A DNA stretch of 64,000 nucleotides, taken from NCBI RefSeq assembly GCF_024171955.1, contig NZ_JAMTCS010000002.1:1-64000 (forward strand), given 5' to 3'. Below are positions 21,840 to 64,000 of this stretch, piece by piece. A model generated the notes under the pieces. It saw only the letters and a list, made by a program, of their open reading frames with translations, was not told where the DNA came from and did not search any database. The stretch's first letter is position 1. Each line of letters opens with the position of its first letter. Both the position numbers and the translations under genes were made by a program. Source of the DNA: Promicromonospora thailandica (lineage in GTDB: Bacteria > Actinomycetota > Actinomycetes > Actinomycetales > Cellulomonadaceae).

Positions 21840-21854
21840 CCCTGGCCGGCCGCC

Positions 21855-21918
21855 AGGTCGGTCCCTTGCCCCGAGATCGGTCCATCGAGCGACCGATCTC
21901 GGGGCAAGGGACCGACCT
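21855..21918. repeat. Long palindromic element, copy A (28-bp perfect arms)
   Basis: Arms 21855-21882 and 21891-21918 are perfect complements around an eight-base loop. The element sits 16 bp after the ppc stop, where it can terminate transcription. Nearly the same sequence occurs inside hemG at 63621-63688, so it is a dispersed element and not only a local terminator. Confidence 0.85.
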
Positions 21919-21957
21919 CGGCGCCTCGGGCTGACAGCTGGGATGAGGGGAGACGCG

Positions 21958-45790: not shown

Positions 45791-45798
45791 CCCGCGAC

Positions 45799-45842
45799 GT
45801 GCCAGACCCTCAGGTCACCCGGGTGGCCTGAGGGTCTGACAC
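45799..45842. terminator. Bidirectional terminator containing the MFS stop codon
   Basis: A 16-bp stem with one mismatch (45799-45814 and 45827-45842) lies between the convergent copC and MFS genes. The last codons and TGA of the MFS gene fall inside the hairpin. Confidence 0.7.
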
Positions 45843-47222
45843 GGGGGCGCGGGAGCGGGTGGCCAGGACCACCGCGACCACGGCGGGCGCCAGCAGCACC
45901 GCGCCCGCCGTGTTGACCGCCTCGAAGCCGCCCCAGGCCAGCAGCGGCCCGGCCAGGGCCGCGGCTCCCGCGCCGAAGTAGTTCATCAGGGCGTCCGTCG
46001 CGCCCTGCAGCGGCAGCTTGACCCGCGGCTCCGCCACGGCCGCCAGCACGGCCGACGACGCGATGACGCACGCCGACCAGCCGAGTCCGAGCAGCACGAG
46101 CGCGACCGCCGTCAGCACCTCGGTGTCCAGGGCCGGGCCCGCACCGTGGCCCGCGTGCCGCGGCGCGTCCGGGACGAGGGCCGCGGCGGTGAAACCGAGC
46201 ACGACGGCCGCGCCCTGGAGCACCATGCCGCCCACCGCGACGCGCAGCGGTCCGAACCGGTCGGCCAGCCACCCGAACACGGGGCTGAGCGCGAACATCC
46301 CCAGCACGTGCAGGCTGATCACGATGCCGACGAGCTGCAGCGACATGCCGCCGTGCTGCATGTGCACCGGCGTCATCACCATCACCATGATCATCACCGC
46401 GTGCGCGGCGGCCGTGGTCACGACGGCGAACCGGGCCCGCGGGTGCGCCCAGGCCCAGCGCAGCGCGCCGAGGGCACCGGTCCGGCGGGCCCTGGCGGGC
46501 GGCGTCCCCGCGTCCGGTGCGGCCGCGACCCCGCCGGGCTCCGTCGCGCCGGCCGCGACCCCGCCCGGCTCCGTCGCGCCGGCCGCCGTCGCCGCCCCGG
46601 CCGCCGTCCCGGCGCGGCCCACGGGTTCGACCACCCCCACCGGGTCGCGGTAGAGGGCGGCCAGCAGCAGGCCCGCCAGCAGGTAGGCCACGACCGAGAA
46701 CAGGTACGGGCCGCCGAGGTCCGGCACACCGAACCCCTGCCCGACGACGGCGCCCGGCGCCGCGAGGTTGGGGCCCACGACCGACCCGACGGTCGTGGAC
46801 CACAGGACCACCGACATGGTGCGGGCGCGCGTGCCGGAGCCGACGTTGTCGGCCGCGGCGTACCGGGACTGCAGGTTGGTCGCGTTGGCGACGCCGTAGA
46901 GCGTGAGACCCACGAGCAGCACGACGAGCTGCCCCAGCACGGCCGCGGTGACGATGAGCACCGCGCCGACGGTCGACAGCGCGTACCCGAGCGACAGCGC
47001 CCAGCGCCGTCCGCGGGTCTGGGCGAGCGTCGCGAGCGGGATCGACGCCACCGCGGCGGCCAGGATGCCCACGGCCTGCGCCAGGCCGGCCATGGCGGTG
47101 CCGCCGAGCTGCTCGGCGAGCAGGGCCCCGACGGCGGCGCCCGACGCGACCCCGACGCCGGCCAGCAGGTTGCTGAGCACCAGGATCACGAGGTTGCGGC
47201 GCTCGTGCGGCGGTTTCTCCAC
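45810..47222 (-). CDS. MFS-family efflux permease
   Basis: Transporter of 470 aa with twelve predicted membrane segments in two halves. Motif A-like loops are present (TRGRRWALS after helix 2, GWLADRFGPLRV after helix 8). The central cytosolic loop is enlarged by an Ala/Gly/Pro-rich stretch coding two copies of GATEPGGVAA. The substrate is unknown. The GTG start follows GAGAGGAAA. The 3' end lies within the terminator shared with copC. Confidence 0.88.
   Translation of the reverse strand: MEKPPHERRNLVILVLSNLLAGVGVASGAAVGALLAEQLGGTAMAGLAQAVGILAAAVASIPLATLAQTRGRRWALSLGYALSTVGAVLIVTAAVLGQLVVLLVGLTLYGVANATNLQSRYAAADNVGSGTRARTMSVVLWSTTVGSVVGPNLAAPGAVVGQGFGVPDLGGPYLFSVVAYLLAGLLLAALYRDPVGVVEPVGRAGTAAGAATAAGATEPGGVAAGATEPGGVAAAPDAGTPPARARRTGALGALRWAWAHPRARFAVVTTAAAHAVMIMVMVMTPVHMQHGGMSLQLVGIVISLHVLGMFALSPVFGWLADRFGPLRVAVGGMVLQGAAVVLGFTAAALVPDAPRHAGHGAGPALDTEVLTAVALVLLGLGWSACVIASSAVLAAVAEPRVKLPLQGATDALMNYFGAGAAALAGPLLAWGGFEAVNTAGAVLLAPAVVAVVLATRSRAPVSDPQATRVT
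46521..46580. repeat. 30-bp tandem repeat, two copies, in the MFS loop
   Basis: Units 46521-46550 and 46551-46580 differ at one base and encode GATEPGGVAA twice in the central loop of the MFS protein. It is a likely length-variable site. Confidence 0.75.
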
Positions 47223-47788: not shown

Positions 47789-47892
47789 TGATCTGCCGAG
47801 GTAGAACTCTGGCGAGATAGAACTGGGGCCGAGGTGCTGATCAGCACCTCGGCCCCAGTTCTATCTCGCCAGAGTTCTACCTCGGCAGATCA
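47789..47892. repeat. 104-bp perfect palindrome (52-bp arms, no loop)
   Basis: The arms meet at 47840/47841 in GCTGATCAGC and match over all 52 bases. The palindrome contains the TGA stop of the convergent YbhN gene (47890-47892) and starts 11 bp after hupB. It can act as a two-way terminator, but it is far longer than termination needs. Confidence 0.9.
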
Positions 47893-52935: not shown

Positions 52936-52956
52936 CCGCGAGCCCGGGTGCGGCCC

Positions 52957-53038
52957 GCCTGATCCCCTTCGAGACCGAGGTTGCTTCGCTTTGAGGCCCC
53001 GCAAACGCGAGCAACCTCGGTCTCAAAGGGGATCAGGC
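52957..53038. repeat. Long inverted repeat between two divergent promoters
   Basis: Arms of about 28 bp (52957-52984 and 53010-53038), with one mismatch and a one-base bulge, carry CCGAGGTTGC on one side and GCAACCTCGG on the other. It lies upstream of both neighbouring genes, so it is not a terminator for either. Confidence 0.8.
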
Positions 53039-53076
53039 CGGATGGAGGGTTGCGAAACCGCCGCGGCGTGCGGCAG

Positions 53077-60800: not shown

Positions 60801-61895
60801 TCAGGCTCTGACGATGGCTTCGGTCACGGCGTCGGCGAGGGCCTCGTCCGTAGGGCTCGCCGCGACGCCGAGCACCGTGTGCCCGACGTCGCCCGCTGCG
60901 CGGGCCGACGGCTCCCCGATCGCGACCACCCGCTGCGGGCCCACCTCGGCGGCGAGCCGGCGCGCGGCCGATCCGGAGGCGACCACGACGACGTCGTACC
61001 GGCGCCGCCGCACCGCCGCGGGCAGCTCGCGCGCGACCGTCCGGTAGGCCGTCACGACGTCGACGGCCCAGCCCTTGGCGACGAGGCCCGCGCGGACGGT
61101 GTCGGCCGCGAGATCCCCGAGGGGCAGCAGCACGCGCGGGCGCCCGGCGTCCTCCGGCGCGGGGCTGCCGGACCGCCGCTGTCCGGTCGGGCCGGCGTCG
61201 GGCCGGCGCGGTGCGGCGGGAAACGCGTCGGCGAGACCGGCCCCGGTCGCGGTGCCGGGCACCAGCTCGGCGGAGATGCCGTGCGCGGCGAGCGCCTGCT
61301 CGGTCGCGGGCCCGACGGCGGCCCACCGCACGGACCGTGCGCCGACCGCGCTGTGCGCTCCGGTCGTGTCGCGTGCCGTTTCGCGTGCGCCGGCCACTTC
61401 GTGGGCGCTGGACGTGTTCGGCGTGTCGATGGTCCCGGGCGTGTCGCCGCGGGGAGAGTCGCCTGCGCGCGCGTGTGTTGCGCTGAGTAGACGCTGTCTA
61501 CTCTGAGCAACCCGTCCGCGCGAGACTGTCTCTTCCAGTGGCCCTCCCGCAGCCGGGGCGGCGGGGCGCGCGGAGGCACCGAGCAGGGCGTCCACGGCGT
61601 TCACGCTGGTGACCGCCACCCACGCGTACGCGCCGGCAGCGAGGCGCTCGCGGGCCGCGTCGAGCACTGCCTGGTCCTCGACGGGCGCGCGCTCGATGAC
61701 GGGCGCCGCGACCACGTCCAGCCCGCGCTCGCGCAGCAGCGCCAGCAGACCGGCGGCTCGCTCGGGCGAGCGCGCGACCAGGACGGCGGGCGCCCCGGCG
61801 GCGGCGTCGGTCGGCGACGCAACGTCCGGCCGGCCGGCGTCCGGTCGCGCGGGATCCTCTGGGGCGGCGCCCGGCGGGGGGACCGGCTCGGTCAC
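60801..61895 (-). CDS. hemD: Uroporphyrinogen-III synthase with enlarged linker
   Basis: Enzyme of 364 aa, about 100 longer than usual, that cyclises hydroxymethylbilane with inversion of ring D. Domain 1 begins [19 protein letters not shown] and runs through [13 protein letters not shown]. Domain 2 begins [17 protein letters not shown] and ends with [17 protein letters not shown] and [14 protein letters not shown]. Between them, and again near [14 protein letters not shown], lie low-complexity inserts. The first, of about 65 residues, includes a DNA hairpin (61477-61511). A Pro-rich N-terminal tail precedes domain 1. The GTG overlaps the hemC stop. Confidence 0.9.
61477..61511. repeat. Hairpin inside the hemD insert
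   Basis: GTTGC...GAGTAGA and TCTACTC...GCAAC form a 12-pair stem with a three-base internal loop and a five-base apical loop. It lies in the part of hemD that codes for the extra linker. Confidence 0.65.
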
Positions 61896-62935
61896 GCCTT
61901 CTCCGGGACCGTCGCGCTCAGCGGGGCGAGCCGCTCGGCGCCGTCGGCCAGCAGGTGCTCGGCGACCGACACGCCCAGCGTGCGGGCGGCGGCGTCGATG
62001 ACGTCGGGGGCGACGTCCGGCGAGAGCCGGGTCTCCGCGGTGCGCGCCATCTGCTCCGAACCATCGACGGCGGCGACGACGGCGCGCAGTCGCAGCGTCG
62101 AGCCGGACACCGTGGCGTGCGCGCCCACCGGGGCGGCGCACCCGGCTTCCAGGCGGGCCAGCACGGACCGCTCGGCGAGGACGGCGAGGCGGGTGGGCCG
62201 GTCGTCGAGCAGGTGGACGGCCTCGGCGAGGTCGGGTACGCGGGGACCGGCCTCGCCGGACGCGATGTCGGCGGTGCGCACCTCGACGGCGAGCGCACCC
62301 TGCCCGGGGGCCGGCGCGACGACGTCGACGTCGAGCACCTCGCTGATCACTTCGGTGCGCCCTAGGCGGGACAGGCCGGCGTACGCGAGGACCACGGCGT
62401 CGAGGTCGGCCTCGGGGCCGAGCGCGCGGTCGAGGCGGGTGCCGACGTTGCCGCGGATGTCCACGACGTCGAGGTCGGGGCGGGCCGCGCGGATCTGCGC
62501 CGCACGGCGCGGCGACCCCGTACCGACACGTCCGCCGCGCGGCAGCGTCGCGAGCGTGAGGCCGTCACGGGCGCACAGCGCGTCGCGCGGGTCCTCGCGG
62601 TCGGGCGTCACGAAGGTGAGGCCCTCGGCGGGCGTGGTGGGCAAATCCTTGAGGGAGTGGACGGCGACGTCGCAGCGGCCGTCCAGCAGCGCCTCGCGCA
62701 GGGCCGTGACGAACACGCCGGTGCCGCCCAGGCTCGCGAGGCTCCCCGTCTTCACGTCGCCCTCGGTCCGGATGCGCACCAGCTCGACCGGCCGTCCGGT
62801 GAGCTCCTCCAGGCGCCGGGCCACGAGCCCGCTCTGCGTGGTGGCCAGGGCGCTCGCGCGCGTGCCGAGGCGGATCGGCGCGGCGTCGGCCCGGTCGCTT
62901 CCGGGGGTGCTGACGGAGAGGGGGGTCGGGGTCAC
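61892..62935 (-). CDS. hemC: Hydroxymethylbilane synthase (porphobilinogen deaminase)
   Basis: Enzyme of 347 aa that polymerises four porphobilinogens. It has IRLGTRASALATTQSGLVA, VAVHSLKDLPTT (catalytic Asp), GTGSPRRAAQIRAARPDL, RGNVGTRLDRAL, and the dipyrromethane-cofactor Cys in LEAGCAAPVGAHA. The GTG at 62935 is chosen because it is closest to the domain and has a leaderless-like GAGACT six bases upstream (62942-62947). The longer frame to 63001 adds residues not seen in the family. The stop overlaps hemD (GTGA). Confidence 0.94.
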   Translation of the reverse strand: MTPTPLSVSTPGSDRADAAPIRLGTRASALATTQSGLVARRLEELTGRPVELVRIRTEGDVKTGSLASLGGTGVFVTALREALLDGRCDVAVHSLKDLPTTPAEGLTFVTPDREDPRDALCARDGLTLATLPRGGRVGTGSPRRAAQIRAARPDLDVVDIRGNVGTRLDRALGPEADLDAVVLAYAGLSRLGRTEVISEVLDVDVVAPAPGQGALAVEVRTADIASGEAGPRVPDLAEAVHLLDDRPTRLAVLAERSVLARLEAGCAAPVGAHATVSGSTLRLRAVVAAVDGSEQMARTAETRLSPDVAPDVIDAAARTLGVSVAEHLLADGAERLAPLSATVPEKA

Positions 62936-62997: not shown

Positions 62998-64000
62998 TCA
63001 CAGGGTTGCTGGCGGCCTGTCAGAACGAGGCTCCCCCGGAGCGGTGGGTGGGGGCACCTCGAGGCGTTCGGCGGTGCGCTGCGCGTGCGCGACGACCGCA
63101 GCCAGGCCCGTGCCCGCGACCCAGCCGCCGGTGACGTCAAGGCCCGGTTCGGCCCGGACCGCCTCGGCGTACGCCGTCACGGCGGCACGGTAGGCCGGCG
63201 TGGGCGGGGGCAGAGCGCCGTCCCAACGCTGGTGCAGCACCTCGCGGACCCGGTCGGTCAGGTCCACTCCGAGCAGGGCCGAGGCATCACGTGCGGCCTC
63301 CTCGGCCGTGGGCTGCGCGGTCCGCTCGCCCATGCGGCCGTAGCTGAGCCGGACCACGTGCACCCCCGGCCCGGCAGCGGCACGCACCCGCCGGGCGAGC
63401 CAGGGCCACTTCGCCGTCGCGTGGGTCAGCGCCTTGGCGCGCACGGTGCCCGGCGTGGTGCCGGGCGCGACGAGCATCCCGGAGCCACGCGGCGCCGCGT
63501 CCAGCTCGGGCGCGTCGACCAGCAGGGTCACGAGCCGGATGTCGGCGCCGCGCTCGTCGCGGACCGGCGCCATGACCCCGCCGGCTGCGCCTAGTTCGGT
63601 CGGTTGCTTGGTGGCTGCGTCGAGGTCGGTCCCTTGTCTCGAGATCGGTACATCGTCGGACCGATCTCGAGACAGGGGACCGACCTCGCTGGCGGATCTG
63701 GGCAGGCGACCGATCTCGGCGTCCGGCGCCGCCGCCAGGACCACGCGCGGGGTGCGCAGCACCTGACCGTCGGCGGTGCGGACCAGCCAGTCGGCCCCCG
63801 GCGCCGGGGCGGCCACCCGGGCCAGGCTCGTGACCCGCGCGCCGAGGCGGACGTCCAGGCGGTCCACCAGGGTGTCGACCAGCGCGTGGATGCCGCCGTC
63901 GATCCCGCGCACGGCCGAGCCCGGCGGCGCGGCGGCGCGCAGGGAGGCCACGGCGCGGGACAGCGAACCCGTTCCGGCGTAGGCGGCGGAGAGCCCGGGG
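62998..64000 (-). CDS. hemG: Protoporphyrinogen/coproporphyrinogen III oxidase (partial, N-terminus off window)
   Basis: The C-terminal 333 codons are present and the FAD-binding N-terminus lies beyond the window. Visible are GIDGGIHALVDTLVDRLDVRLG, VRTADGQVLRTPRVVLAAAPDAEI and VTGGWVAGTGLAAVVAHAQRTAERL, the flavin-amine-oxidase-type ending. In actinobacteria this enzyme (also called hemY or cgoX) usually oxidises coproporphyrinogen III. About 35 extra residues (SEVGPLSRDRSDDV and onward) are coded by a palindromic element inserted at 63621-63688, just before ADIRLVTLLVDAPEL. The frame stays open through it. Confidence 0.88.
   Translation of the reverse strand, partial: PGLSAAYAGTGSLSRAVASLRAAAPPGSAVRGIDGGIHALVDTLVDRLDVRLGARVTSLARVAAPAPGADWLVRTADGQVLRTPRVVLAAAPDAEIGRLPRSASEVGPLSRDRSDDVPISRQGTDLDAATKQPTELGAAGGVMAPVRDERGADIRLVTLLVDAPELDAAPRGSGMLVAPGTTPGTVRAKALTHATAKWPWLARRVRAAAGPGVHVVRLSYGRMGERTAQPTAEEAARDASALLGVDLTDRVREVLHQRWDGALPPPTPAYRAAVTAYAEAVRAEPGLDVTGGWVAGTGLAAVVAHAQRTAERLEVPPPTAPGEPRSDRPPATL
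63621..63688. repeat. Long palindromic element, copy B, inside hemG
   Basis: Arms 63621-63649 and 63660-63688 (29 bp, one T-G pair) surround a ten-base loop. It is the same element as at 21855-21918. Where copy A has CCC/GGG in the stem, copy B has TCT/AGA, so the pairing is kept. An extra partial unit GCGACCGATCTCGG lies at 63706-63719. Confidence 0.85.

Follow-up and report, generated by a model that had tools for sequence, protein, structure and literature searches.

A palindromic repeat family of Promicromonospora, read in frame within conserved genes: a probable behavioral counterpart of the Rickettsia and Wolbachia protein-coding palindromic elements

A porphyrinogen oxidase gene of Promicromonospora thailandica carries, in frame, a long palindrome that is very probably one copy of a Promicromonospora repeat family whose behavior matches that of protein-coding palindromic elements known from Rickettsia and Wolbachia. 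Most copies of this family sit directly behind genes, where they would be able to form a strong RNA hairpin, and a few occupy loops or linkers of conserved proteins. The host gene lies at the end of the stretch of 64,000 nucleotides of contig NZ_JAMTCS010000002.1 that was analyzed (hereafter, the window): its C-terminal part occupies positions 62998..64000 of the minus strand, with the stop codon at 62998, and the gene extends past the window. Its product matches the Pfam family Amino_oxidase above the cut-off, and the best NCBIfam match, PRK11883, stays below its cut-off. The host gene, labeled heme oxidase in the first-pass annotation, encodes an FAD-type porphyrinogen oxidase, HemG or CgoX, rather than a heme oxidase; we take it to be of the CgoX/HemY type and refer to it below as hemG.

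The description of the hemG palindrome as a near-perfect inverted repeat of 68 bp, read in frame, stands up to closer analysis. The core (63621..63688, no strand) consists of two 29-nt arms, 63621-63649 and 63660-63688, which are 97% complementary and enclose a 10-nt loop (63650-63659). The 68-mer folds as RNA with -57.3 kcal/mol (z of -9.65), a value equaled by none of the 200 shuffled sequences. When the 131-nt stretch 63590-63720 is folded, a pair of outer arms is formed as well, weaker than that of the core arms; with limits that are approximate, being taken from the fold, the left outer arm (63591..63608) holds a divergent unit, TTCGGTCGGTTGC, and the right one (63702..63719) the unit GCGACCGATCTC. 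The minus-strand ORF is open across the palindrome, the core codons 63622-63687 being read in its self-symmetric frame, and the element-derived segment as a whole comprises 42 in-frame codons (63592..63717, minus strand) with the sequence EIGRLPRSAS-EVGPLSRDRSDDVPISRQGTDL-DAATKQPTEL. The GC content at third codon positions (GC3) is 0.67 in this segment as opposed to 0.94 in the rest of the gene, so that the segment looks foreign to its host.

The element also occurs free. A copy at 21853..21920 (no strand) starts 13 nt past a stop codon and ends 37 nt ahead of the next gene, as delimited by our own gene finder, which bears out, with adjusted limits, the copy reported earlier at 21855-21918 behind ppc, the gene name being adopted here as an assumption. 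The arm of this copy has 4 matches in the 64-kb window and none in 100 shuffled windows. The genome search with the arm that had been proposed as a check gave 24 matches for the hemG arm, with at most 3 mismatches allowed, and the reversed control matched nowhere. A covariance model built from 16 copies yielded 131 matches in the same genome, which correspond to at least 66 places, and 93 matches in G009, a congener assembled into a single contig, which correspond to at least 47 places; these place counts are lower bounds, with 150 candidates scored per genome. The consensus of the core starts with CGAG and ends with CTCG, and the CGAGNTCGGT units within it keep a fixed spacing of 19 nt, while the centre and the arms vary among the copies.

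A looser arm pattern detects at least one arm in 24 of 200 genomes of the family, namely, in 12 of the 13 Promicromonospora genomes and in 12 others, 7 of which have at least 6 arm matches. Within Promicromonospora, the number of arm matches per genome ranges from 0 to 96; the congener G008 shows no match with two arm patterns, yet it holds a diverged copy in its helicase gene. A search with one mismatch allowed, which misses diverged relatives, scored in one of the 396 genomes of an order-wide sample, the own one, 361 of these genomes belonging to other families. A viral carrier was considered and set aside, the full palindrome pattern having no exact match in viral_contigs. Searches of open papers brought up no description of elements of this kind from Promicromonospora or any other Actinobacteria. 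In several spacer copies of G003 (L332-L344), the arm units can be seen by eye to run on beside the core as tandem arrays of about 30 nt.

The placement of the copies was derived from gene calls of our own hidden Markov gene finder, which was trained on long GC3-rich ORFs and scored the element neutrally. The 66 copies of the own genome fall into 57 intergenic ones, 3 across gene ends and 6 inside genes; the respective numbers for the 47 copies of G009 are 40, 3, and 4. Altogether, 97 of the 113 copies found are intergenic, 6 lie at gene ends, and 10 are within genes, in agreement with the suggestion that a small element has colonized both spacers and coding DNA of an actinobacterium. The intergenic copies are not scattered evenly: 67 of 97 lie no more than 60 nt past a stop codon; convergent spacers harbor 38 of 97 copies compared to 45 of 283 among element-free control spacers of the own genome (Fisher test, 6.5e-6), and divergent spacers harbor only 7 of 97 compared to 61 of 283 (Fisher test, 0.0011). 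Between tandem genes, the copy is closer to the upstream stop in 30 of 34 cases in the own genome (median distance, 28 nt) and in 15 of 18 cases in G009 (median, 34 nt). Together with the high stability of the hairpin, these data could be taken to mean that the family is mainly a signal of the 3'-end, either a transcription terminator or an mRNA stabilizer, and that the in-gene copies are rare accidents made harmless by translation. We give this possibility serious weight, if somewhat less than even credence. Against it, no TTTT follows the hairpin within 15 nt on either strand in any of the 97 free copies, so that these copies resemble REPs in their placement and differ from T-tailed terminators; given that the number of arm matches varies from 0 to 96 within one genus, the element cannot be a general terminator; and the single reading frame of the in-gene copies, to which we turn now, is left unexplained.

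The six host genes of the own genome encode HemG, RecD, an Ada/AlkA protein, an MpaB-like oxygenase, a sacsin-like ATPase, and a DECH-box helicase. In the Ada/AlkA protein, the insert occupies the linker that joins the AraC-type domain to AlkA_N. The identities of the hosts are backed by protein families that span or flank the insert; among those matching across it are TIGR01447 for RecD (470 bits) and TIGR03817 for the helicase (1045 bits). Four of the six genes are occupied in G009 as well. All 10 in-gene copies are read in the same frame, the first codon of which begins at the second base of the 68-mer. Since 68 = 1 + 66 + 1, this frame maps onto itself upon inversion, and the same type of peptide is specified in either orientation, a polar stretch of 22 residues with the approximate consensus E-x-G-xxx-RDRS-xxx-PIS-x-Q-x-T-D-L.

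It might be thought that this frame is used simply because it is the most open one. Among 194 strand readings of the free copies, the three frames are open in 112, 113 (the symmetric frame), and 171 cases, so that the frame in use is not the most open; the third frame, the most open one, is used by none of the 10 genic copies, and openness was rejected as the cause of the rule. With the symmetric frame weighted by its openness, at 0.285, the probability of its use in all six host genes is 0.00054; with equal frames, it is 0.0014. Stops in the symmetric frame were found in 81 of 194 strand readings of free copies and in none of the 10 genic copies (Fisher test, 0.0067). The majority of these stops in free copies (65 of 111) are TGA replacing CGA at residue 7 of the peptide, where all 10 genic copies have CGA. 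As for the earlier emphasis on the frame that stays open through the palindrome, the hemG ORF is indeed open; a part of this openness is inherent to the element, as the 113 of 194 readings of free copies testify.

One of the six gene-end copies, in G009, makes up the whole in-frame C-terminus of a protein, and another, in the own genome, is read in the symmetric frame and then terminated by a stop. At L275 (G009:C1:2821921), the element supplies, in the symmetric frame and right up to the stop codon, the C-terminal 22 residues of what looks like a membrane protein. At L297 (G180:C1:786740), a sister copy is read in the symmetric frame within a gene for what looks like an MFS transporter, its peptide being EIGASRRDRSVEAPISDRTTAL; G180 represents another genus of the family, perhaps Cellulomonas. 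One more in-gene call in G180 (L309), in another frame, was left out by judgement as a spurious ORF. The four host sites of G009 being common to the own genome, the frame rule rests on six host genes, together with one C-terminus and a single gene from another genus.

Relatives differ in whether they carry the hemG segment. Of 11 readable Promicromonospora hemG genes, 7 have the full element, always at the same loop, and 4 lack it; relative to these four HemG proteins without the full core, the insert adds 36, 38, 40, and 43 residues, in place of the earlier estimate of about 35. The short stretches that the four retain may be remnants. In other genera, for which HemG is the protein compared, the peptide was found in none of 67 loci, not all of which contain the complete gene; in 8 of the 67, a weak palindrome with 5-9 mismatches between its arms is present within 1.8 kb, again with no such peptide. 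Within a set of 34 of the 77 loci, the segment was readable in 18 of 25 loci from other genera, and none of these contained the element. Thus, as the alignment proposed in the first-pass annotation was meant to reveal, relatives without the element lack this segment. The notion that a conserved part of the gene is interrupted had to be abandoned: both the alignment and a structural model place the insertion in a variable loop flanked by conserved stretches. The alignment used with the model comprised 45 of the 77 HemG loci, and the one host modeled was the HemG of P. iranensis (AlphaFold, mean pLDDT of 85). In this model, the core of the insert (residues 303-324) falls within a stretch, 299-332, with pLDDT below 50, between the strands 285-288 and 348-356; the modeling check suggested in the first-pass annotation thus speaks for a loop position. 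The plain reading of the model is that the predicted insert is a passenger in a disordered loop.

The other host genes vary in a similar manner. The RecD site holds the element in the own genome and lacks it in all 7 orthologues fetched, a comparison from which five other congeners were left out; the limits of the RecD insert are blurred, with about 8 native residues seemingly replaced. In addition to the own copies, orthologues with the palindrome numbered 6 of the 11 fetched for Ada, 7 of 12 for MpaB, 5 of 10 for the helicase, and 4 of 10 for the sacsin-like protein, with R-x-R required at residues 7-9 of the peptide, and with the helicases of G011 and G004 and the sacsin-like gene of G001 left out of the counts. 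The R-x-R rule missed the MpaB of G004 and the sacsin-like protein of G005, which peptide alignment identifies as bearing diverged copies, and some other sites counted as empty are partial, with element-like ends in the alignment. The sacsin-like protein of P. soli (G006) has right-arm peptide units without the core, and G007 has a tandemly repeated peptide unit, TDLASIAGQP. At the Ada and MpaB sites, two subfamilies with different centres are present in different species.

The recurrence of filled sites brings up the possibility that the peptide is useful, i.e. that the insert has been retained as a linker with a function and is the source from which the free copies spread. The same loops are indeed filled in several species (7 of 11 HemG; the own MpaB and 7 of its 12 fetched orthologues), and the peptide is similar at each site. 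We nevertheless regard a useful peptide as quite unlikely: the segment is absent from the same gene in several species where the protein is otherwise intact, the host proteins are unrelated, the likeness of the peptides largely follows from the palindrome, and the insert is disordered in the HemG model. An artefact of assembly or annotation would come to mind, as repeats are often misassembled; it is hardly conceivable here, since the same sites are filled, with species-specific sequences, in several independent assemblies including the single-contig G009, and it was rejected on these grounds. On the HemG tree with its 11 rows, three changes between filled and empty states are needed, and 212 of 500 shuffles of the labels gave a number as low, so that the tree fits one gain followed by losses and several gains alike.

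Within a copy, the arms tend to change in concert. For the own genome, the arms of one copy differ on average at 3.4 of 29 places, compared to 7.2 between copies, and none of 2000 shuffles reached this value; the partner arm is the nearest arm in just 24 of 66 copies. Across species, within-copy arm distances are also low in HemG (2.9 versus 5.4; 16 of 5040 permutations as low), MpaB (3.0 versus 5.6; 2 of 5000), and Ada (3.7 versus 7.7; 1 of 5040). The sacsin-like gene shows a weak effect (6 of 120 permutations as low), and the helicase displays no co-change across species (7.0 versus 6.4; 660 of 720). As far as can be judged from these sequences, co-change in three of five host genes indicates that the palindrome is maintained within coding DNA at some sites. 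The most likely source of the likeness of the arms would be template switching in the hairpin or exchange with other copies.

Co-changing arms, combined with the fixed 19-nt spacing of the units, would also befit a DNA-binding site, for instance, one involved in chromosome organization, repair, or recombination, the sequence of which is selected wherever it is located; that three of the six host genes are those of DNA repair proteins or helicases points in the same direction. We deem such a site unlikely, considering that G008 yields no match with two arm patterns (its helicase gene with the diverged copy notwithstanding), that the centre and the arms are variable, and that there is no candidate protein. 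A more far-reaching extension of the comparison with protein-coding palindromic elements, which we put forward tentatively and with considerable doubt, is that an orientation-independent element is kept palindromic while being translated, its arms changing together within one gene across species, and that different subfamilies refill the same few protein loops, of which half belong to products of DNA repair or helicase genes. If so, hairpin-templated copying or exchange between copies would be active within coding DNA, and in several distinct lineages of bacteria, repair genes would either draw in or tolerate elements of this sort.

How would these elements move and persist? A RAYT-driven REP was considered and rejected: the Y1 transposase (PF01797) was found in none of the 13 genomes of the genus, as compared to 5 of 14 control genomes. 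Of 12 flanks of G003 copies sought in G002, 11 were located, and 2 of these 11 sites lack the palindrome, one of them retaining part of an arm and the other being unaligned on one side; thus, the G003/G002 pair offers no clean empty site and, hence, no visible target duplication. Given these two negative results, we infer mobility from the copy number and the patchy presence of the element. In the scenario that we favor, that of a family behaving like protein-coding palindromic elements, genic copies would persist where the symmetric frame is free of stops, as in suitable variants, where the 22-residue peptide that may be translated is polar and, presumably selected to be harmless, and where the downstream frame remains intact. 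Copies would decay through partial deletion and grow through tandem repetition of the outer-arm unit of about 30 nt, with their arms kept alike by the processes proposed above.

The hemG element has company in the window. A palindrome with perfect 52-nt arms (47789..47892, no strand), composed of 16-nt units (CGAGGTAGAACTNNNG) and assignable to a sister family, is located between convergent genes; by eye, it follows a gene that reads like HU and has a TAG in one frame. The sister family has 126 matches in the own genome and 315 in that of P. panici (G005), and none in 4 of the 13 genomes of the genus. Additional long palindromes, which belong to different sequence families, are found at 45798-45843 and 52954-53041, and still more in six stretches of the own genome (L075, L095, L081, L099, L105, and L107); TGTCAGACCCTCAGG and CGAGATCTGGYGTTYGCGC are examples from these and the window ones. 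Finally, an ORF that reads by eye like hemD, the gene of uroporphyrinogen-III synthase (60801-62141, minus strand), seems to have a long low-complexity insert at approximately 61336-61417, with a direct repeat spaced at 48 nt.

Rickettsia and Wolbachia are obligate intracellular bacteria, and Promicromonospora are culturable bacteria of the soil. The habit of in-frame palindromes known from the former is met here in a culturable actinobacterial genus with large genomes. The orientation-independent frame offers a straightforward explanation for the ability of a palindrome to enter genes at all, and the series of species makes the translation of the insert, its cost, and its movement amenable to testing.

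The palindromic elements of Rickettsia (RPE) are described as repeats that reside in spacers and, in frame, in conserved genes, where they encode a conserved, solvent-exposed peptide, with the same site filled in orthologues (PMC3767692, PMC2229807, PMC10969869); translation of the insert was demonstrated for Gmk, the activity of which was compared with and without the insert (PMC2229807), nearly half of the RPE of R. conorii are inside genes (PMC10969869), and the R. conorii elements are described as having a CGTC end tag (PMC3733652). The Promicromonospora element shares with the RPE the occurrence of a repeated palindrome in spacers (97 copies) and genes (10 copies, with 6 more at gene ends), the in-frame reading with one recurring peptide (10 of 10 in-gene copies), the absence of the segment from orthologues outside the group (0 of 67 HemG loci of other genera), and a disordered place in the host protein, as predicted for one host, the HemG of P. 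iranensis. It differs in belonging to an actinobacterium, in its 68-bp core of units spaced at 19 nt versus 100-150 bp in the RPE, in the absence of the CGTC tag (CGAG...CTCG delimit the core), and in the smaller share of in-gene copies, 10 of 113. Rickettsia as the precedent, named in the first-pass annotation, is therefore apt for the behavior, that is, a single frame, read in frame, in spacers and conserved genes alike, and inapt for the tag and the core length; the element may be called RPE-like by analogy of behavior alone, and we claim no membership in the Rickettsia families.

Palindromes resembling the Wolbachia palindromic elements (WPE) are in frame in addA, addB, and priA (PMC4224334), and REPs with GTAG or CGTC tags are placed downstream of genes or between convergent genes, with in-gene copies in functions of DNA synthesis and repair, the products of recBCD and uvrABCD being named, and REPs inside genes being known from some other species (PMC3733652); the stems of these REPs measure 5-13 bp (GTAG) and 8-9 bp (CGTC), and the GTAG REPs are linked to RAYT transposases (PMC3733652). 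Our element, compared to the WPE by description only, likewise consists of palindromes in frame within genes, in another phylum; it resembles the REPs in its placement downstream of genes and between convergent ones and differs from them in its 29-bp stem, in having neither a GTAG nor a CGTC tag, and in that no Y1 transposase was found. RecD, Ada/AlkA, and the helicase are among the six hosts here, a match with the REP and WPE hosts that was noticed post hoc and involves a small number. In mitochondria of Nematomorpha, protein-coding inverted repeats are kept as palindromes (PMC6649704); the arms there encode conserved native protein, whereas those of the Promicromonospora element encode an added segment.

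Among Actinobacteria, the MIRUs of mycobacteria are small interspersed repeats with coding potential at gene ends. Our element is similarly small, interspersed, and actinobacterial, and unlike it, MIRUs are not palindromic and are found at gene junctions. Taken together, these comparisons identify the Promicromonospora element as a new actinobacterial family of a known kind, to which it adds a self-symmetric reading frame, the co-change of arms in coding DNA, and a series of species with filled, partial, and empty sites.
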